A model generated the notes under the pieces. It worked only from the letters and a program-made list of their open reading frames with translations. It did no database searches and was not told where the DNA came from. The translations under genes were made by a program, and so were the position numbers. From the NCBI RefSeq assembly GCF_900112245.1, contig NZ_FOYX01000001.1, positions 793,856 to 857,855 on the forward strand: a stretch of DNA of 64,000 nucleotides. Direction: 5' to 3'. Numbering within the stretch: position 1 is the stretch's first letter; the number at the start of each line of letters is the position of its first letter. Origin of the DNA: Maribacter stanieri. Its GTDB lineage: Bacteria; Bacteroidota; Bacteroidia; Flavobacteriales; Flavobacteriaceae. This document shows positions 3,701 through 28,009 of the stretch, one piece after another.

Positions 3701-5282
3701 CACAATAAAATATTTGCTTGCCGAAATGGAAGTTGTACGCAACAAAGAAAAATCACCCTTAAAATATAGAGGTACTATTGTAGATATTACTAAGCAGAAA
3801 GAGGCTGAAAATGAAATACTATCGCTACAATCCAAAATGAATGCGGCAGTACGAATTGGAAAATTTGGATATTGGCATTGGGAAATGGACACCAACGTTG
3901 TTGAATGGTCAAAAGAAATGTATGAAATACATGAAATTGATCCAAGTGTTGTAATGACACCAGAATTGGTACGGGAAACAATCTATTCTGAAGATGTAGG
4001 TCTCATGGAAGCTAAAATTGCACAAAAGAAAGACCAGGGCAATTCAACTCCAAGTTTTTATAGAATTCAGCTAAAAGACAAATCGTTTAAATACTTTTTA
4101 GCATATTCAGAATTGGTTTATAATGAGAATAACGAGCCTATAACATACCGTGGTACGGCAATGGATATTACCAAAAGTGTATTAGCTGAAGAAGCCCTCA
4201 AAGAAAGTCAAGAGAAATTCTCAAAGGCCTTTCAAACAAATTTAATAGGTATGCTAATGTTAGATAGTTCCAGAAGAGTTATTGAAGCAAATGAAATGGC
4301 ATACACTATTCTAAATACTACTAAAAGCAAGCTTATTGGTAAAACAATGCTGGAGAATAGAGACATTATTGTCAATGAAAATGAGCGTGAAAGATTATGG
4401 AAAAAGCTTAATATAGAAGGAGAAATTGTAAATGAAGAATACAAAATTGAATTAGAATGTGGTACCAAAAAAACTCTTTTACTATCTATGACTCCTCTGT
4501 ATCTTAATGGAAAGAGAAGTTATCTTGTAAATATTTTTGACGATTCTAAAAGAAGAGAAGCAGAGAGAAATTTAGAAAATCAATATTTTGAGCTTCAAAA
4601 AACCAACTCAGAACTTGATAGTTTTGTTTATAGTGCCTCTCATGAATTAAGGGCTCCATTATCTTCTGTTCTAGGTCTAATTCATTTAATACAAATGGAG
4701 GAAATAGACCCTAAACTTTTTCAGCATATGAACATGATGGAAAAATCAATTGAAAGGTTAGACAGCTTCATTAAAGATATAATTGAATATTCTCGAAATA
4801 AACATGTTCAGGTTAAGCTAGAATCCATAAATTTTACTAATTTAATTGAACAATCGCTTGAAAGCTTCTGGTATTTAGAAAACACCAGTAAAATAAATAT
4901 AGAAATTAGCGTAGATGAAATAATCGAATTTGTATCGGATAGTAAACGAATTTCAATTTTATTGAATAATTTTATATCAAACGCTATTAAATATCATGAT
5001 GTGAATAAGGTTTCACCTTCAATTTGGATTAGTGTAAAAACGACCAAAAAAGAGGCAATCATTGAAATTAAAGATAATGGTGTTGGTATGGCCAAAGATC
5101 AATTAGAAAAGATTTTTAAAATGTTTTACAGAGTCTCATCTAAAGTTATGGGGTCTGGTATAGGGCTATATATTGTTAAAGAAGTAATTGTAAAATTAAA
5201 TGGTAAAATAGAAGTAAAATCAAAGCTTGGAGAAGGTTCAACTTTTACTTTAAAAATACCAAATGAATCAAGTAGATTATAA
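714..5282 (+). CDS. CHASE/multi-PAS sensor histidine kinase
   Basis: Membrane-bound sensor kinase of about 1522 residues. An N-terminal membrane segment (about 15-33) and a second one (about 245-277) bracket an extracytoplasmic CHASE-like sensor. Eight PAS modules follow (starting near residues 297, 418, 545, 662, 785, 910, 1035 and 1165). The fifth to seventh are near-copies of each other, each opening with K-M-(N/D)-x-A-x-R-I-G-K. The transmitter has the H-box SHELRAPL with phospho-acceptor His near 1310, the N-box NNFISNAIKY, and DNGVGM and GSGIGLYIVK ATP-binding motifs. There is no receiver domain; the response regulator beginning 1 nt after the stop is the likely partner. The ATG at 714 is preferred over an in-frame TTG at 699. 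The ligand is unknown. Confidence 0.9.
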   Translation: MSEPEKSSVFKNPLLYGFLAFFLVLIITQFIAFQKYQLHQKTERQEIEQRVATLKVDLQNVLSQSFYATQTLSFIVGQYGVPKNFDSVAQLLLNSNKSIDALELVNSDGVITHVYPLEGNEVLGLNILNDPDNKFGAKTTLEKGDYYTAGPIYLRQGGSGIIGRRPLYKEGEFNGFVAAVVRLTTVVDEIQIDTIKEAPFAYQLVKINPDNSEETFYASQDINKNEAISVPLIASQGEWKLYVFSNNNSSYSTSILFSVLGFLLSLVCGILSWFLMRQPAKLNKLVDEKTALLKSSQDRYRLLIEEASDCIILSDFSGNVLDINPYGVQMFGYTKEQLLTKNLKDLVSAEDSIQLPSRFFKLKEGNTIRSERNFIKKDGTPFYGEVSAKKLNENAVLGIIRDITERKELELIAEENLAKFSKAYNNRFVGMVIKDHNNRFVDANSYFLNLTGYTLEEVRGKTISELGLMNFEEALKKNPNLNVFTNSNQVDKIEVEFTAKNGKKLHLVTSIEPYEYLGTKFSLRTYIDQTEAYNANLATLQSEKKYKQFTERISDAFVAFDNEWNFVDINAKAAKIVGMDVNEMLGKNVWDEYPDFKNTEAYAMFKGAMARQVYTYFEQYHPKTDRWIENHIYPSTNGLSIYFRDITHRKKEDQEKQKLISVIENSPGFIGLATIDGKPIFLNDAGKKLIDLPCDFDIKNATIHDFFAEEYKDVITNEHLPTIMKKGLWTGEVPLKNLKSKKTIPLEFSGFIIKDKTTNEPIGIGSIGFDLTERKKSQKEILELQGKMNAAIRIGKIGYWDFDVKTETFICSPLMYTIYDIAPDNVLTIPFLETIIHPDDVEKHRQNVRDLIIEKSTHAFTYRIIVTDGSIKHLMVEVEVIRDPENMAVNFRGTVIDITKEKEADFEIIELKDKMDIAMRIGKIGYWDYDFFTKILYWSPRLFEIYDVDPGTEITLSFVETLIHPDDLEKHSEIVYNISEDIDNYSMSYRIIHRDGTIKYLLAEMEVVRNKEKSPLKYRGTIVDITKQKEAENEILSLQSKMNAAVRIGKFGYWHWEMDTNVVEWSKEMYEIHEIDPSVVMTPELVRETIYSEDVGLMEAKIAQKKDQGNSTPSFYRIQLKDKSFKYFLAYSELVYNENNEPITYRGTAMDITKSVLAEEALKESQEKFSKAFQTNLIGMLMLDSSRRVIEANEMAYTILNTTKSKLIGKTMLENRDIIVNENERERLWKKLNIEGEIVNEEYKIELECGTKKTLLLSMTPLYLNGKRSYLVNIFDDSKRREAERNLENQYFELQKTNSELDSFVYSASHELRAPLSSVLGLIHLIQMEEIDPKLFQHMNMMEKSIERLDSFIKDIIEYSRNKHVQVKLESINFTNLIEQSLESFWYLENTSKINIEISVDEIIEFVSDSKRISILLNNFISNAIKYHDVNKVSPSIWISVKTTKKEAIIEIKDNGVGMAKDQLEKIFKMFYRVSSKVMGSGIGLYIVKEVIVKLNGKIEVKSKLGEGSTFTLKIPNESSRL

Positions 5283-16953: not shown

Positions 16954-18183
16954 ATGAAGAAACTAAAGGTCATAGAGCTTTTTGCAGGTGTTGGTGGATT
17001 TCGCTTAGGATTGGAGGATACTGATAGCTATGAGGTAGTTTGGAGCAATCAATGGGAACCCAGTACTAAAATACAGCATGCCTCAAAGGTTTATGAAGCT
17101 AGATTTGGACCCCAAAACCATCGCAATAAAGATATTTCTGAAGTGCCTACCAAGGATATTGCCGATGCAGATATTCTAGTTGGTGGTTTTCCCTGCCAAG
17201 ATTACTCGGTTGCATCAACACTAAATAATTCTAAAGGTCTTATTGGTAAAAAAGGGGTTTTATGGTGGAGTATTCATAGAATTTTATCGGAAAAAAAGAA
17301 CCCACCAAATTACCTATTTCTTGAAAATGTAGATCGATTACTAAAATCTCCTTCTAATCAACGCGGGAGAGATTTTGCCATAATGCTTAAAAGTTTAGAT
17401 GACTTAGGTTATGCAGTAGAATGGCGGGTTATTAATGCTGCAGATTACGGAATGCCGCAAAGAAGAAGACGTATTTTTTTCTTAGGATACCATAAATCTA
17501 CTCCGCTTTATAAACAATTTAAAAAAGCTACAGCCAAAGAGTGGATTTTTGAAAAGGGAACTATAGCAACCGCTTTTCCGATAACAAGCACTTCTTTAAA
17601 AATGACTTCTTTCGATATCACCGATAACTTAGTATCGCTATCTGAAAATTTTAATTTGGGTGAAAAATTATCTCCCTTTCAAAATACCGGCGTATTCATT
17701 AAAGGAAAAGTATACACCACTAAAACTACGGCTAGTTATATTGGTAAAAGAACAGTTTTAGCTGATGTTTTACAAAAAGGTCGTATACCTGAAGAATTCT
17801 ACATTCCTGAAGAAGAACATGATAAATGGTATTATTTAAAAGGATCAAAAAAAGAAACCCGAACTTCTAAATCTGGTTTTGCTTATCATTATAATGAAGG
17901 TAATATGATTTTTCCTGATGCTCTAGACAATGCTTCAAGAACAATTATTACAGGGGAAGGTGGTAAAAGCGCATCAAGATTTAAACACGTTATCAATACT
18001 AAAAAAGGACTGCGCAGATTAACACCTGTTGAATTGGAACGCTTAAATATGTTCCCTGATAATCACACATTACTAGATGGTATTTCAAATACAAAAAGAG
18101 CATTTTTTATGGGTAATGCACTAGTAGTTGGTGTTGTAAAAAAAATTGGTGAAACCCTTGCCGAAAAAATTAAAACAACCTAG
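16954..18183 (+). CDS. DNA (cytosine-5) methyltransferase
   Basis: A 409-residue C5 cytosine methyltransferase. Motif I is ELFAGVGGFRLG; motif IV is GGFPCQDYSVA with nucleophile Cys81; motif VI is LENVDRLL with Glu124; motif VIII is QRRRRIFF near 169. The variable target-recognition region lies between about 185 and 330, and the C-terminal motifs IX-X (GLRRLTPVELERLNMFPD, GNALVVGVV) are intact, so it is probably active. The target sequence is not predictable. No obvious restriction endonuclease is adjacent; a small protein with a degenerate nuclease-like pattern follows 140 nt downstream. Confidence 0.93.
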   Translation: MKKLKVIELFAGVGGFRLGLEDTDSYEVVWSNQWEPSTKIQHASKVYEARFGPQNHRNKDISEVPTKDIADADILVGGFPCQDYSVASTLNNSKGLIGKKGVLWWSIHRILSEKKNPPNYLFLENVDRLLKSPSNQRGRDFAIMLKSLDDLGYAVEWRVINAADYGMPQRRRRIFFLGYHKSTPLYKQFKKATAKEWIFEKGTIATAFPITSTSLKMTSFDITDNLVSLSENFNLGEKLSPFQNTGVFIKGKVYTTKTTASYIGKRTVLADVLQKGRIPEEFYIPEEEHDKWYYLKGSKKETRTSKSGFAYHYNEGNMIFPDALDNASRTIITGEGGKSASRFKHVINTKKGLRRLTPVELERLNMFPDNHTLLDGISNTKRAFFMGNALVVGVVKKIGETLAEKIKTT

Positions 18184-18323: not shown

Positions 18324-18698
18324 ATGGTAAAAGTAGAAAAGTCAGAAAATATAGAATTTTTAGAAAAATCAATTCAACATCTAGAAGCCACTGGGTTCGA
18401 GAATATAAAAGCTGATATGGAGGGTTACGAAACTCCTAAATCTTATTCTAGAAAAGGAAAAGAGGATAATATTACACCAGACATAGTAGCTATTAAAAAT
18501 GGTAGAAAATATTATTTTGATATTAGTCTTAAATCTCCTAAAACGAGATTACTTAAATCTAAATGGCTCTTTTTAGATACCTTAAGTAGAATGAACTCTA
18601 ACAGATTTAGAATTATTACTACCAGGGGCCATTATAAATTTACAGATAGTATGTTAGAGGATATTAATCTAACCAACAAAACACCAATTAAAATTTAA
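18324..18698 (+). CDS. Small protein with degenerate PD-(D/E)xK-like motif
   Basis: A 124-residue soluble protein. The central segment TPDIVAIKNGRKYYFDISLK has the strand-turn-strand layout of restriction-nuclease-fold proteins (PD, then a hydrophobic strand ending in Lys), but the position two before the Lys is Ser, so a catalytic role is doubtful. The following RLLKSKWLFLDTLSR and RIITTRGHYKF segments look conserved. It lies downstream of the cytosine methyltransferase on the same strand, separated by 140 bp of T/A-rich sequence, and ends just before a bidirectional terminator. Function is unknown; a modification-linked role is only inference from position. Confidence 0.6.
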   Translation: MVKVEKSENIEFLEKSIQHLEATGFENIKADMEGYETPKSYSRKGKEDNITPDIVAIKNGRKYYFDISLKSPKTRLLKSKWLFLDTLSRMNSNRFRIITTRGHYKFTDSMLEDINLTNKTPIKI

Positions 18699-19300: not shown

Positions 19301-19732
19301 TTATTGTAGTGGAATCTTTTCAATTCTGCGTTCATGCCTACCACCTTCAAAAGAAGTATTTAAAAAAGTAGAAACCATTTCAAGTGCTTGAGGTAGTGCT
19401 ATATATCTAGCTGGTAAACTTAAAACGTTAGCATCATTATGTTCTCTAGCTAATTTAGTTATCTCTTTTGTCCAACATAAAGCAGCTCTAACATTTTGTT
19501 GTTTGTTTGCGGTCATACAAGCTCCATTACCACTACCACAGATTAAAATACCAAAATCTGCGTTACCACTTTCAACATCTAATGCAACGGGGTGCGCAAA
19601 ATCAGGATAATCAACACTATTAGTGCCATCGGTACCATAATTTATAACTTCAACCTGTTTAGATTTTAATAGACCTATAATAGCTAACTTATATTCTGTA
19701 CCAGCGTGATCGTTTCCAATAGCTATTTTCAT
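19301..19732 (-). CDS. rpiB: Ribose-5-phosphate isomerase B
   Basis: A 143-residue enzyme interconverting ribose 5-phosphate and ribulose 5-phosphate in the pentose phosphate pathway. The RpiB/LacA family signature is complete: IGNDHAGTEYK at the N-terminus and the anion-hole loop ICGSGNGACMTANK with the active-site Cys. The C-terminal HNDANVLSLPARYIA block is also typical. It acts in the cytoplasm as a homodimer. The gene points left, with nearly 650 bp of non-coding DNA separating it from rnr. Confidence 0.95.
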   Translation of the reverse strand: MKIAIGNDHAGTEYKLAIIGLLKSKQVEVINYGTDGTNSVDYPDFAHPVALDVESGNADFGILICGSGNGACMTANKQQNVRAALCWTKEITKLAREHNDANVLSLPARYIALPQALEMVSTFLNTSFEGGRHERRIEKIPLQ

Positions 19733-20379
19733 ATGCGTAATATTTAAAGGTTAATTGTTCATGATTTATATCCAGTGGGGGTGGAACTAAACCATGCTAA
19801 AGGTACAATAATCAGCGTTTCACAACAAAATTAGAGGGGTTGACAACAATAGTTACCTAGTAAATAATAATAATTGTTAATTAGTATGTTATAAGCAAGA
19901 TTACTTCCTGCATAAATTGTTTAGAAAAAGTTGCTTAAAAATTTGGTTATTAAAGTTGACATCTGCTTACACTTTTAATCTACTTAACACGAATTTAAAT
20001 ATTATAAAGTGTTAGATGATTTTCATCAAATTAACAACCCTAGTTAACATTAAAATTACATTTAGTTATTAATAAATTCATGTTAATAGCAGTTATAAAC
20101 CACGTTTAATAACTTCTCAAAATACTGATTCTCAATTGTAGATTATAAAAATAGATCGTCAACAAGTATTAGTATCTCATAATGTCAAGTAATATCCAAA
20201 TAAGTTATTGCAGATATTAACAAGCTATAATAATCATTAATATTTAATTTAATTTAAAAGAAAAAATGCCATTTATGATATATATGTTAATAACAACTTA
20301 TTTACTTAACTTTTCAATAAGAAGTAGACTAACAGGTAGTGAATTATAATTCGTAATTTTCCAATAAATTAAAAGTTTA
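19733..20379. other. Long AT-rich divergent intergenic region between rpiB and rnr
   Basis: A 647-bp gap with no gene. It holds at least seven copies of TTAACA or its complement TGTTAA (19875, 19984, 20031, 20044, 20081, 20217, 20285), more than base composition would suggest by rough estimate. TTAACAT at 20044 and ATGTTAA at 20080 form a spaced inverted repeat. It presumably carries both divergent promoters; no DnaA-box-like TTATCCACA or RNA gene was seen. Confidence 0.45.
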
Positions 20380-22572
20380 ATGTCAAAAAGAAATAAGAAG
20401 GCGAATAATCATAAAAAGAACGAAATTACCAAGGGTATTTTTACCGTTCTAGAGAAGGACCCGAATAAAAGTTTCAACTATAAGCAGATTGCTGCTAAGA
20501 TTAATATTACAGAAGCTCAAGATAGAAATACCCTGATTAAAAGATTAACGGAGCTTAAAGAGAAAAAAAGAATTCAAGAAGTAGAAAGAGGTCAGTATAA
20601 AGTTTTAGAAAATACAAAATCTTACTACGAAGGCACAGTAGATGTTACAGGTAAAGGAAATGCCTATATTGTTGTTGATGGTATGGATGATGATATATTT
20701 ATCCCTGCCAATAAATTAAACAAAGCTTTTCATAAAGATAAAGTAGAAGTTTATATCTACCCGAGAAGTAAAAGTAAAAAACTTGAAGGTGAGATAGTTA
20801 AAGTACTTGAAAGATACAAAACCACCTTTGTTGGTATTGTTGATATGCAAAAGACTTTTGCTTTTGTAAGACCTTCTGACTTTAGAATGTATACCGATAT
20901 TTTTGTTTCTAAAGATAAATTAGGTGATGCAAAAGATGGTGAAAAAGTACTGGTAGAAATTACAGATTGGCCAGATGATGTTGATTCTCCCTTTGGTAAA
21001 GTAACAGAGGTCTTAGGTATACCTGGAGAACATGATACTGAAATTCATTCAATTCTGGCTGAATACGGTTTACCATATTCTTTTCCTGCAGATGTTCAGA
21101 ATTTTGCTGATGGATTAGATACAAGTATAAAAGAGGAAGATATTAAAAAACGTAGAGATGTACGTGATGTGCTCACATTTACTATAGATCCAAAAGATGC
21201 CAAGGATTTTGATGATGCATTATCTTTTCAAAAATTAGAAAATGGGAATTATGAGATAGGTATTCATATTGCCGATGTATCTCATTACTTACAAAAGAAT
21301 ACTATTTTAGATGATGAAGCTTATGAAAGAGCTACATCTGTATATTTAGTTGATCGTGTGGTACCTATGTTACCAGAGGTTCTTTCTAATAATGCATGTT
21401 CACTAAGACCTAATGAAGAGAAATATACCTTTTCGGCCATTTTTGAACTGGATACTAATGCAATAATAAGAAATCAATGGTTTGGTAGAACTGTAATTGA
21501 TTCTAACGAACGTTTTGCCTATGAAGAGGCTCAATATATCATTGAGACCGGTAGCGGCGATATACCGCAAGATATATCTATAAGAGATGCTGCTTATACA
21601 GTTTCTAAAGATGTTGTTGAGGCTACTTTGGAAATGGATAGATTAGCTAAAATTATGAGAGATAAACGTATGGATCAAGGAGCATTATCCTTTGATAAAG
21701 TTGAAGTACGTTTTAATTTAGATGAAAACAGTAATCCAATAGGTGTTTACTTCAAAGAATCTAAAGATGCTAATAAGCTTATAGAGGAGTTTATGCTGCT
21801 AGCGAATAGAAAAGTGGCAGAATTTATTGGAAAACAAAAACCTAAAAAGACTTTTGTTTATAGAATTCATGACGATCCAGACCCAGATAAATTAATGGCT
21901 TTGAATGGTATCGTCTCTAAATTTGGTCATAAATTAGATTTCAAGGATAAGAAATCTATAAGTTCTTCTTTAAACCAATTACTACAAGATGTAAAAGGCA
22001 AAAAAGAACAGAATATGGTAGATACGCTAACAATACGTAGTATGAGTAAAGCTATTTATACAATTGATAATATTGGTCATTATGGTTTAGCTTTTGATTA
22101 TTATACTCATTTTACTTCTCCTATTCGTAGGTATCCAGATGTGATGGTGCATAGATTATTACAGCATTATTTAGATGGTGGTAGTTCTGCCAATGCAGAG
22201 GAGTTTGAAAAGAAATGTAAGCATTCTTCAGATATGGAGTACTTGGCTTCTAGCGCAGAGAGAGATTCTATTAAGTACATGCAGATTAAATTCATGCAAG
22301 ATCATAAAGATGAAGAGTTCCGTGGTGTTATTAGTGGAGTTACCGAGTGGGGAATTTATGTGGAAATCATAGCTAACAAATGTGAGGGAATGATTCGTAT
22401 TAGAGACATAAAAGGAGATTATTATATCTTTGATGAGAAGCAATATGCTATTATTGGTGAACGTACCAAAAAGAAATATACTTTAGGTGACGAGATAACT
22501 GTTATGGTTAAGAGTACCGATTTAGTTAAAAGGCATTTAGATTTTGCTTTGATTCCGGATAGTAATAAATAG
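20380..22572 (+). CDS. rnr: Ribonuclease R
   Basis: A 730-residue processive 3'-5' exoribonuclease that degrades structured RNA. The order is an N-terminal winged-helix (about 10-70), two cold-shock OB domains (about 80-225), the RNB catalytic domain and a C-terminal S1 domain (about 640-725). The catalytic aspartates are in DPKDAKDFDDALS (Asp270, Asp276, Asp278, Asp279), and the RNB end motif HFTSPIRRYPDVMVHRLL is intact. Compared with E. coli RNase R (813 aa) it lacks the long basic tail, as is common in Bacteroidota. It is preceded by a long AT-rich leader region and followed 84 bp later by the head-GIN gene. Confidence 0.95.
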   Translation: MSKRNKKANNHKKNEITKGIFTVLEKDPNKSFNYKQIAAKINITEAQDRNTLIKRLTELKEKKRIQEVERGQYKVLENTKSYYEGTVDVTGKGNAYIVVDGMDDDIFIPANKLNKAFHKDKVEVYIYPRSKSKKLEGEIVKVLERYKTTFVGIVDMQKTFAFVRPSDFRMYTDIFVSKDKLGDAKDGEKVLVEITDWPDDVDSPFGKVTEVLGIPGEHDTEIHSILAEYGLPYSFPADVQNFADGLDTSIKEEDIKKRRDVRDVLTFTIDPKDAKDFDDALSFQKLENGNYEIGIHIADVSHYLQKNTILDDEAYERATSVYLVDRVVPMLPEVLSNNACSLRPNEEKYTFSAIFELDTNAIIRNQWFGRTVIDSNERFAYEEAQYIIETGSGDIPQDISIRDAAYTVSKDVVEATLEMDRLAKIMRDKRMDQGALSFDKVEVRFNLDENSNPIGVYFKESKDANKLIEEFMLLANRKVAEFIGKQKPKKTFVYRIHDDPDPDKLMALNGIVSKFGHKLDFKDKKSISSSLNQLLQDVKGKKEQNMVDTLTIRSMSKAIYTIDNIGHYGLAFDYYTHFTSPIRRYPDVMVHRLLQHYLDGGSSANAEEFEKKCKHSSDMEYLASSAERDSIKYMQIKFMQDHKDEEFRGVISGVTEWGIYVEIIANKCEGMIRIRDIKGDYYIFDEKQYAIIGERTKKKYTLGDEITVMVKSTDLVKRHLDFALIPDSNK

Positions 22573-25692: not shown

Positions 25693-25708
25693 TGTTCCAC
25701 GTGGAACA
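25693..25708. promoter_or_regulatory. parS: parS-like 16-bp palindrome (ParB site), copy 2
   Basis: The sequence TGTTCCACGTGGAACA is a perfect palindrome and matches the general bacterial parS consensus TGTTNCACGTGNAACA at every defined position. It sits between mnmG and the downstream methyltransferase. The identical site lies on the other side of mnmG, 1.9 kb away. ParB spreading and SMC loading at such sites organise the origin region; a function here is inferred from sequence identity only. Confidence 0.8.
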
Positions 25709-25715
25709 ATTTGTC

Positions 25716-27584
25716 CTACCTTCCGAGATATACTAAAAGAACACTGATGTCGCTTGGTGTAACTCCGCTAATTCTTGATGCTTGTGAAATTGTAACAGGT
25801 TGAATTTTTGTCATTTTTTCTCTTGCCTCAAATGACAAAGATTTCAATTTTGAGTAATCAAAATTGACTGGAATCTTTACAGCTTCTAGTCTATGTAGCT
25901 TGTCTGCATTTACTTTTTCCTTTGCTATATATCCTGAGTATTTAATTTGTACTTCTGCTTGTTCTAATATTTCGCTATCAAAATTGTTTTCTTTTACAAA
26001 GTTCGAAACATCTTCTAGTTGCAACATGTGGTCCATGGTAACGTTAGGTCTTGAAAATGCTTTGTACATTTTATCAGATTGTTTTACTAAAGAAGAATCA
26101 ACGCTTTCAAAAATGGGATTAATATCTTTAGGAAGTACACTAGTTTCTCTAAAGAAGTTAACTAATGCTTCAGATTGCTCTAATTTTTCTTCCATCCTTT
26201 TCATGCGAGTATCTGTGGCTAAACCTATAGAATGACTTAATGGTGTTAATCTTAAATCGGCATTATCTTGTCTTAACAATGTTCTATATTCTGCCCTAGA
26301 AGTAAACATTCTATATGGTTCTTCTGTGCCTTTGGTAATTAGGTCATCTATAAGAACACCAATGTAGGCTTCATCTCTTTTTAATATTAAAGCATCTTTT
26401 TCTTGCAGTTTTAAATGTGCATTTATCCCAGCCATTAAACCTTGAGAAGCTGCTTCTTCGTAACCTGTAGTTCCATTAATTTGACCAGCGAAATATAAAT
26501 TTTCAACTAGCTTAGTTTCTAAGGTATGTTTCAACTGAGTTGGTGGAAAGTAATCATATTCTATTGCATAACCTGGTCTAAAGAATTTTACGTTTTCAAA
26601 ACCAACAACAGATCTTAATGCTTTAAACTGTACATCTTCTGGTAAAGAAGTTGAAAATCCGTTCACATAGACTTCTACAGTTTCCCAACCTTCTGGTTCA
26701 ATAAACATTTGGTGACTGTCTTTATCTGCGAATCTGTTTATTTTATCTTCTATGGATGGACAATACCTTGGTCCTAAACTTTTAATTCTCCCATTGAACA
26801 TTGGTGATCTATCAAATCCTTCTCTCAATAAATCATGTACCATGGCACTGGTATGTGTCATGTAACAATCTCGTTGATGAGTTAATGGTTTTGTTTTGGT
26901 ATAAGAAAATTTTTCAGGGATAACATCTCCTGGTTGTACAATCATTTTAGAATAATCTAAGGATCTACCATCCACTCTTGGTGGTGTGCCGGTTTTCATT
27001 CTCCCACTTTCAAATCCTAATTCAACTAGTTGTTCGGTTATTCCTGTAGCTGCTCTTTCACCTGCTCTACCTCCACCAAATTGTTTTTCACCAATATGTA
27101 TCAATCCATTTAGGAATGTTCCGTTAGTTAAAACAACAGATTTTGATTTTATATTTATTCCTAAGGATGTTTTAACTCCAACAACTTTATTGTTTTCTAT
27201 TAACAATCCAGATACCATTTCCTGATAAAAATCTACGTTTTCCGTTCTTTCTAACATTAAACGCCATTCTTCTGCAAATCGCATTCTGTCATTTTGGGTT
27301 CTTGGACTCCACATTGCAGGACCCTTAGATTTGTTAAGCATCTTAAATTGTATAGCAGATTTGTCTGATACAATTCCGCTATAACCTCCTAGAGCGTCAA
27401 TCTCTCTAACAATTTGCCCTTTAGCAATTCCTCCCATGGCTGGGTTACATGACATCTGTCCAATATTTTGCAGATTCATGGTTACTAATAAGGTTTTTGA
27501 ACCCAAGTTTGCAGCTGCTGCTGCCGCTTCTGCACCGGCGTGTCCTCCGCCAACTACAATTACATCATATTCTTCTTCAAACAT
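25716..27584 (-). CDS. mnmG: tRNA uridine-5-carboxymethylaminomethyl modification enzyme
   Basis: A 622-residue FAD-dependent enzyme that, with MnmE, installs the 5-carboxymethylaminomethyl group at U34 of certain tRNAs. Visible signatures are the N-terminal dinucleotide-binding VVVGGGHAGAEAA, SCNPAMGGIAKG, the GTPPRVDGRS region, FAGQINGTTGYEEAASQG and the C-terminal SGYIAKE helical domain; length is normal. It starts 6 nt after the ybeY stop and is flanked on each side by an identical parS-like palindrome. In many bacteria mnmG lies near parAB and oriC, but here parAB is not visible. Confidence 0.97.
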   Translation of the reverse strand: MFEEEYDVIVVGGGHAGAEAAAAAANLGSKTLLVTMNLQNIGQMSCNPAMGGIAKGQIVREIDALGGYSGIVSDKSAIQFKMLNKSKGPAMWSPRTQNDRMRFAEEWRLMLERTENVDFYQEMVSGLLIENNKVVGVKTSLGINIKSKSVVLTNGTFLNGLIHIGEKQFGGGRAGERAATGITEQLVELGFESGRMKTGTPPRVDGRSLDYSKMIVQPGDVIPEKFSYTKTKPLTHQRDCYMTHTSAMVHDLLREGFDRSPMFNGRIKSLGPRYCPSIEDKINRFADKDSHQMFIEPEGWETVEVYVNGFSTSLPEDVQFKALRSVVGFENVKFFRPGYAIEYDYFPPTQLKHTLETKLVENLYFAGQINGTTGYEEAASQGLMAGINAHLKLQEKDALILKRDEAYIGVLIDDLITKGTEEPYRMFTSRAEYRTLLRQDNADLRLTPLSHSIGLATDTRMKRMEEKLEQSEALVNFFRETSVLPKDINPIFESVDSSLVKQSDKMYKAFSRPNVTMDHMLQLEDVSNFVKENNFDSEILEQAEVQIKYSGYIAKEKVNADKLHRLEAVKIPVNFDYSKLKSLSFEAREKMTKIQPVTISQASRISGVTPSDISVLLVYLGR

Positions 27585-27589
27585 ATCTT

Positions 27590-28009
27590 CTATTGTTCCA
27601 CGTGGAACAGCTTTATTTTTTCTTCTTCTTTAGCGCGCATTTCGGTAGTAGCTGTATCCGATTTATCCGAATAACCCATAAGATGTAAAACCCCATGGAT
27701 CATTACGCGCTTTAATTCGTTCTCAAAAGTTACATTAAATTCTGTTGCGTTCTCTTTAACTCGATCAATGGAAATGTATAAGTCTCCAGAAATATTTTTT
27801 CCAGATACATAGTCAAACGTAATAATGTCGGTTAAATAATCGTGTTGTAGGTAATCTTGGTTGATTTTAAGTAGATAATCATCGTCGCAAAAAATGTAAT
27901 TCAATTCTTGAATTTTATATCCTTCCGTTTGGCAAGATGCTGTTATCCATAAATTGAATTTCTCCTCTACATCTAATTTAAAATCGCTTAGGTAATTATA
28001 ATTAATCAT
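27590..28009 (-). CDS. ybeY: Endoribonuclease YbeY (rRNA maturation factor)
   Basis: A 139-residue metal-dependent endoribonuclease involved in 16S rRNA 3' maturation and ribosome quality control. The zinc motif reads HGVLHLMGYSDKSD; the usual third His of HGxLHxxGYDH is replaced by Asp two residues after Tyr, a variant common in this phylum. The gene overlaps the end of the DUF4175 gene by 8 nt. Its last residues LFHVEQ are encoded by the 16-bp parS-like palindrome, so coding and DNA-site constraints overlap. Confidence 0.94.
   Translation of the reverse strand: MINYNYLSDFKLDVEEKFNLWITASCQTEGYKIQELNYIFCDDDYLLKINQDYLQHDYLTDIITFDYVSGKNISGDLYISIDRVKENATEFNVTFENELKRVMIHGVLHLMGYSDKSDTATTEMRAKEEEKIKLFHVEQ
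27594..27609. promoter_or_regulatory. parS: parS-like 16-bp palindrome (ParB site), copy 1
   Basis: TGTTCCACGTGGAACA, identical to the copy at the other end of mnmG. It lies inside the 3' end of ybeY and encodes the final FHVE residues. The match to the parS consensus is complete. Confidence 0.8.

Follow-up and report, generated by a model that had tools for sequence, protein, structure and literature searches.

It is textbook knowledge that parS sites act as chromosomal centromeres. The main survey of these sites is said to be that of Livny et al. from 2007, which may list flavobacterial sites. In the Spo0J/parS system of Bacillus subtilis and the ParB/parS system of Caulobacter crescentus, the site is a 16-bp palindrome with a CACGTG centre that is present in few, origin-proximal copies, and the cognate ParB carries specificity and CTPase motifs. 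The parS consensus has been given as TGTTTCACGTGAAACA and that of NBS, the nucleoid-occlusion sites of Noc, as TATTTCCCGGGAAATA (PMC7383237). In Bacteroidetes it is common for oriC to be located far from dnaA (PMC4755523). A study of 12 species determined that dnaA was not a consistent marker of the origin, and in two of the species, Bacteroides caecimuris and Muribaculum intestinale, clusters of parS sites and the GC skew, backed by read coverage, placed the origin (PMC10197239). According to that study, both species lack known homologues of condensin. For two Flavobacteriaceae, Mariniflexile litorale and Algorimicrobium bowmanii, Ori-Finder and the GC skew put oriC at mnmG (PMC11278836, PMC12843772). 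In M. litorale dnaA did not fit the skew, and in the accessible part of the paper the labels of the figure legend are opposite to the text (PMC11278836). The words parS, ParB, and centromere are in neither main text of the latter two papers. The kind of site, dnaA-distant origins in Bacteroidetes, and mnmG-side origins in two flavobacteria are already known. The open-licence literature searched yielded no description of paired parS sites around mnmG that mark the origin throughout a family, or of dnaA and parAB both being distal.

In this report, a stretch of 64,000 nucleotides from Maribacter stanieri (the window) is examined for two copies of the 16-mer TGTTCCACGTGGAACA that bracket mnmG (gidA; 25716..27584, minus strand; TIGR00136 mnmG_gidA, 837.6 bits, cut-off 524.85), whose product is 95% identical to MnmG of Maribacter litoralis. 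Site 1 (25693..25708, no strand assigned) lies 7 bp past the mnmG stop codon and site 2 (27594..27609, likewise) precedes the start of the gene by 9 bp, so that the copies are 1.9 kb apart. Both are identical and perfectly palindromic, exactly as the initial annotation had described them. Site 2 overlaps the 3' end of ybeY (27590..28009, minus strand; TIGR00043, 106.2 bits, cut-off 45), whose stop codon is at 27590-27592, and because the site sits within the final ybeY codons the C-terminus of YbeY reads LFHVEQ. The names MnmG, YbeY, RNase R, RpiB, and DnaA are used here for proteins with NCBIfam scores above the curated cut-offs. We consider the two palindromes to be a putative chromosomal parS centromere, with a probability of roughly 0.95 on the sequence evidence described below.

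The sites are few and clustered, with two copies and none dispersed in a genome of 4.46 Mb. When up to three mismatches were allowed, the two copies were the sole matches in the window (0.10 expected), and none of 100 shuffles reached two. Across all nine contigs of the genome they were again the sole matches at 0, 1, or 2 mismatches; at three mismatches seven extra places appeared, and the reversed control pattern gave 17 matches at the same setting. The composition-based expectation for the exact 16-mer is 0.0004 per genome. The initial annotation had judged a chance origin unlikely and had proposed a genome-wide scan for mismatch variants, and these counts bear out its judgement. Compared with the consensus TGTTTCACGTGAAACA, TGTTCCACGTGGAACA departs symmetrically at two positions, with C in place of T and G in place of A, and the pattern TGTTYCACGTGRAACA covers both forms. 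The parS-like identity that had been assigned to the palindromes gains support from the conservation of the sites and from a canonical ParB. The arrangement resembles those of B. subtilis and C. crescentus in the length of the palindrome, its CACGTG centre, the small number of origin-proximal copies, and the motifs of ParB. It differs from them in that Maribacter has the symmetric CC/GG variant, exactly two sites that bracket one gene, and a parAB operon and dnaA that are far off, and in that no ScpA was found.

The GC skew, used here as a proxy for the origin, places the pair at the origin and not at the terminus in the Maribacter contig and in four relatives. In 464 kb of contiguous sequence the cumulative skew minimum is at position 791,219 of contig C9, and the first parS site is at 819,548, 28 kb away. 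In coarse samples along the 2.39-Mb contig, six of the seven places left of the window had negative skew, and every place from the window to the right had positive skew. The four relatives were picked from 50 because their dnaA distances differ, and 20 stretches of 20 kb were sampled in each. The fitted skew origins were 55, 56, 119, and 66 kb from parS, with bin half-widths of 88-112 kb; in G134 the distance of 119 kb is greater than the half-width of 112 kb. The score of the two-arm fit was matched by 0, 0, 4, and 16 of 300 shuffles, the last two values being those of G134 and G131. The initial annotation had read the pair as an origin-proximal centromere and had suggested a comparison with dnaA and the skew minimum. 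The reading is supported, the skew speaks against a terminus location in the Maribacter contig, and dnaA is on a different contig from the sites and the nearby minimum.

The positions of dnaA and parB relative to parS were determined in 49 complete genomes and expressed as fractions of a replichore, for which genome lengths were rounded to 0.1 Mb except in four genomes. The distance between parS and dnaA ranges from 0.39 to 0.98 of a replichore (median 0.73; at least 0.5 in 47/49), and that between parS and parB from 0.28 to 0.92 (median 0.65; at least 0.5 in 41/49). Neither gene was within 0.2 replichore of parS in any of the 49. In the Maribacter genome itself dnaA and parB are both on other contigs than parS and are therefore at least 819 kb from it, which agrees with the remark in the initial annotation that parA and parB are not next to the sites. 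The annotation had also invoked the textbook gidA-gidB-parAB-parS layout near the origin; here the adjacency of mnmG and parS stood, but parAB and dnaA are not within a few kb of parS and in most relatives are in the distal half of the replichore. The distance from dnaA to the fitted terminus was 177 kb in G019, 66 kb in G188, 682 kb in G134, and 1385 kb in G131. The numbering of many of the complete genomes examined starts at dnaA, distant from the origin.

A search of the Maribacter genome with ParB_N (E up to 0.001) returned a single match, a 302-aa ParB encoded beside a ParA-like protein. The ParB matched the NCBIfam model for the parB_part domain above the cut-off, and its neighbour matched ParA models below their cut-offs. 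When the protein was aligned to a solved ParB (7bnk) over 194 residues, the CTP motif GERR was found to be retained, and alignment with solved ParBs showed the helix-turn-helix residues GK-x-R..AN/GH-x-R to be retained as well. By our own mapping these residues would correspond to the parS-reading residues named in PMC7383237. Since ParB_N matched no other protein of the genome at E 0.001, we infer that the 302-aa protein is the cognate ParB of the pair. The ParB_N match of the Maribacter genome exceeds the cut-off, and 78 of 78 relatives searched likewise encode a ParB_N protein above it, the 35 that lack the exact site included. Several genomes (G019, G097, G102, G171, G183, G188, and others) encode a second ParB_N protein of ~600 aa besides the chromosomal ParB of 300 aa.

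A search for ScpA, the presence of which would characterize a centromere that loads Smc-ScpAB, gave no hit in any of 53 genomes; the control search was positive in 9 of 14 control genomes, and Bacteroides ihuae was not among the nine. This result agrees with the two Bacteroidetes described, in the accessible part of PMC10197239, as lacking known condensins. As ScpA was not found, it is probable that loading of Smc-ScpAB by ParB-parS does not occur or that another complex carries out this step.

The site is widely conserved among relatives. The exact class TGTTYCACGTGRAACA occurs in 264 of 299 family genomes, at one to three copies per genome, and the reversed pattern occurs in one of the 299. 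Among genomes drawn from the phylum it was found in 292 of 392, own family counted in, where the reversed pattern matched at least two entries. Seven of the 35 family genomes without an exact site were re-scanned at one mismatch and six gained one. The surroundings of mnmG were compared in the best 80 of 589 loci, ranked by similarity to the mnmG of the window, which are mostly from Flavobacteriaceae and take in some Weeksellaceae and Cyclobacteriaceae. In these best 80 of 589 loci, the 14-bp core GTTYCACGTGRAAC is within 1 kb of mnmG in 79, on both sides in 66, upstream only in 10, downstream only in 3, and on neither side in 1; it occurs 0 times within mnmG and six times in the other 1.28 Mb. 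The exception, a Capnocytophaga locus (L108) read over 19.7 kb, has no parS core anywhere. With one mismatch allowed, a site was present in 49 of 50 single-contig genomes; across the same 50, the reversed control gave eight matches. At least one site is within 1 kb of mnmG in 48 of these 49 (both sides in 40, one side in 8; in one genome of the set, G284, the mnmG match spans residues 1-403 only), and 94 of the 111 sites in the 49 genomes are within 1 kb of mnmG, with 17 farther away. Since the loci share descent, these counts are not independent trials; the conservation signal is the fixed place of the site against its near absence elsewhere. The two copies of one genome can share lineage variants, as with TTTCAC/GTGAAA at both ends in Chryseobacterium, and three loci that are siteless at up to one mismatch (L093, L094, L110) retain the 14-bp core with altered end bases.

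Could the palindromes instead be RNA hairpins, that is, intrinsic terminators or regulatory stems of a ybeY-mnmG transcription unit? A short hairpin (5 or 6 pairs with a 4-nt loop) is predicted at both sites, both have terminator-like matches, and the downstream site of a few relatives (L049 and L094, for example) is part of a longer stem with T after it. However, both terminator-like matches are on the plus strand, opposite to ybeY-mnmG, the region has 3 such matches compared with 1.8 in shuffles, and the folding of the transcribed strand is ordinary (z of -0.71 and -1.55). A terminator 9 bp ahead of mnmG would be expected to silence mnmG, and what is retained is the sequence rather than mere pairing, with the same 14-bp core in 79 of the best 80 of 589 loci. 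We regard the hairpin reading as very improbable. Coding constraint, in which the 16-mer recurs by way of the conserved YbeY-terminal peptide FHVEQ, would account for a minority of the loci: the nearest upstream core is in an open frame of at least 100 codons in 25 of 76 loci (from the best 80 of 589), and 24 of the 25 encode FHV[EK], in frames not each confirmed as ybeY. The core persists outside such frames in the other 51 of the 76, which places the selection on the DNA and not on the YbeY peptide. In addition, the downstream site comes after the mnmG stop, and the expectation by composition is too low for chance to explain an exact match, so the likelihood of coding constraint or chance is negligible.

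Two further alternatives concern the protein that reads the sites. Instead of forming a centromere, they may be operators at which a local regulator controls mnmG or ybeY, as the presence of sites at both ends of mnmG in 66 of the best 80 of 589 loci would allow, and ParB complexes are reported to influence nearby promoters (PMC7022226). But the sequence fits the parS consensus of PMC7383237, the sites are at the skew origin, and in G020 they are still clustered though 278 kb from mnmG; a local operator is rated as extremely improbable. The other alternative is that they are NBS bound by Noc. NBS are dispersed sites, and the Maribacter genome has just two. The 302-aa ParB does score 235 bits on the NCBIfam Noc model, but this is below the cut-off of 315, and the NBS consensus differs from TGTTCCACGTGGAACA at the centre (PMC7383237). 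The protein also retains the R and the G that separate ParB from Noc, residues whose roles are described in PMC7383237, and almost no weight can be given to Noc.

Replication probably begins near the pair, and the proposed candidate for oriC is the gap between the divergent genes rpiB (ribose-5-phosphate isomerase B; 19301..19732, minus strand; TIGR01120, 145.8 bits, cut-off 138.65) and rnr (ribonuclease R; 20380..22572, plus strand; TIGR02063, 733.3 bits, cut-off 597.85). The gap (19733..20379, no strand assigned) is 647 bp long with 24% GC, contains three TATTAACA boxes, and is 5.3 kb from parS site 1. The candidate arose from a search and not from a prior hypothesis: TATTAACA is the most enriched 8-mer in ten divergent rpiB-rnr gaps (36 seen, 3.0 expected under a first-order model), which are not independent because three Tenacibaculum and two Maribacter are among them, and seven loci with co-oriented rpiB and rnr were left out of the choice. 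In the 464 kb of contiguous sequence TATTAACA is nowhere denser than in the gap (3 in 650 bp, 0.05 expected), which also contains the 600-bp stretch of lowest GC, by a small difference (0.225 compared with 0.227 at two other places). With the motif chosen post hoc and the skew minimum ~23 kb from the gap, its assignment as oriC is rated at even odds.

The enrichment of TATTAACA was also determined in ten loci outside the choice, seven of which are from Chryseobacterium or Kaistella. The 2-kb stretches before rnr contain 15 copies in 19.5 kb, compared with 11 in 183.6 kb outside them; a single locus (L090) contributes six of the 15, there are none in L063, L104, and L107, and there is one in L086, whose densest cluster is elsewhere. 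Two loci (L100, L106) were left out of this count because they end short of the pre-rnr stretch. The 3.5-kb dnaA locus contains no TATTAACA, and the canonical DnaA box TTATCCACA at up to one mismatch was found 0 times in the gap of the window and 0 times in that of L042. Clusters of at least four DnaA-box-like 9-mers per 400 bp occur in seven of the best 80 of 589 loci (L097, L103, L104, L105, L111, L119, and L121: four Chryseobacterium, one Kaistella, one Roseivirga, and one Algoriphagus), all of them 4.3-5.8 kb from the mnmG start on the downstream side, so that side and distance are alike in Weeksellaceae and Cyclobacteriaceae. Genes and boxes were read in five of the seven. In the Weeksellaceae L097, L104, and L111 a cluster of 4-7 boxes adjoins rpiB, with rnr beyond; in L097 and L104 it extends into rpiB. 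The clusters of L119 and L121 are between other genes and adjoin neither rpiB nor rnr.

A mechanism can be proposed in which ParB dimers from the distant parAB operon would load at each parS site as CTP-dependent clamps and slide across the mnmG region, after which the ParA ATPase would pull newly copied origin regions apart. Replication would begin close to the sites. Its likeliest start, with a probability of about one half, would be the rpiB-rnr gap at a distance of 5.3 kb, served in trans by DnaA from a distant gene. It is conceivable that Flavobacteriaceae as a family have split the replication and ParABS functions in this way, with a parS bracket and an rpiB-rnr origin within ~6 kb of it, DnaA acting through a shifted box near TATTAACA, distal dnaA and parAB, and no Smc-ScpAB, but we advance this combination tentatively and with more doubt than confidence. 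The gut Bacteroidia B. caecimuris and M. intestinale differ from Maribacter in having Hi-C data and, in the accessible part of PMC10197239, no link to mnmG; Mariniflexile and Algorimicrobium are like Maribacter in being Flavobacteriaceae with an origin predicted at or near mnmG, and differ in that each report covers one genome. Two parS sites around mnmG would give a one-line sequence marker of the replication origin for a large bacterial family, and the location of the origin bears on the comparison of genomes, on arguments from gene dosage, and on growth rates estimated from coverage. A natural ParB-parS centromere that is seemingly without ScpA and has a distant parAB would also allow tests of parAB-parS linkage and of condensin loading.

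Several variants of the sites were observed among the relatives. The upstream copies in L063 (Kordia) and L086 are centred on CACATG, whereas another Kordia locus, L099, has CACGTG; parS-like sites with a CACATG centre are present in L063, L086, two Tenacibaculum loci (L092, L094), and a Flavobacterium locus (L065), and a change of ParB specificity is possible. Arrays of 4-10 parS-like sites are located upstream of mnmG in the Flavobacterium loci L065, L070, L071, and L073. In G020 a cluster of three parS sites (G020:C1:997143-998781) lies 278-280 kb from mnmG, so that centromere and mnmG are unlinked there. G107, a single-contig, 2.7-Mb genome from the family of the window, has ParB and DnaA but lacks both a parS site (one mismatch allowed) and an mnmG match (E 1e-100). 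Five of the best 80 of 589 loci (L059, L066, L076, L077, L080) have a recurrent third near-match, TCTTCCACGTGAAACA, at 4.5-5.6 kb downstream of mnmG. In these five it was not counted as parS because it is within a coding frame, LPRETAGY, a motif suggestive of an MltD-like protein. The same 16-mer is 5.4-8.9 kb away in six complete genomes, and these six are among the 17 far sites.

Two other places in the window were considered as oriC and rejected. DnaA boxes near mnmG are at chance level, with four matches to TTATNCACA in the window compared with 4.4 expected, and the four boxes at one mismatch within 3 kb of mnmG are scattered. A trio of DnaA boxes at 5000, 5325, and 7794 is 8-10 kb from the skew minimum, intragenic, and near chance. 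An open reading frame at 16954-18183, ~8 kb from the parS pair, resembles by eye a C5-cytosine DNA methyltransferase, and a small open reading frame (18324-18698) comes after it.
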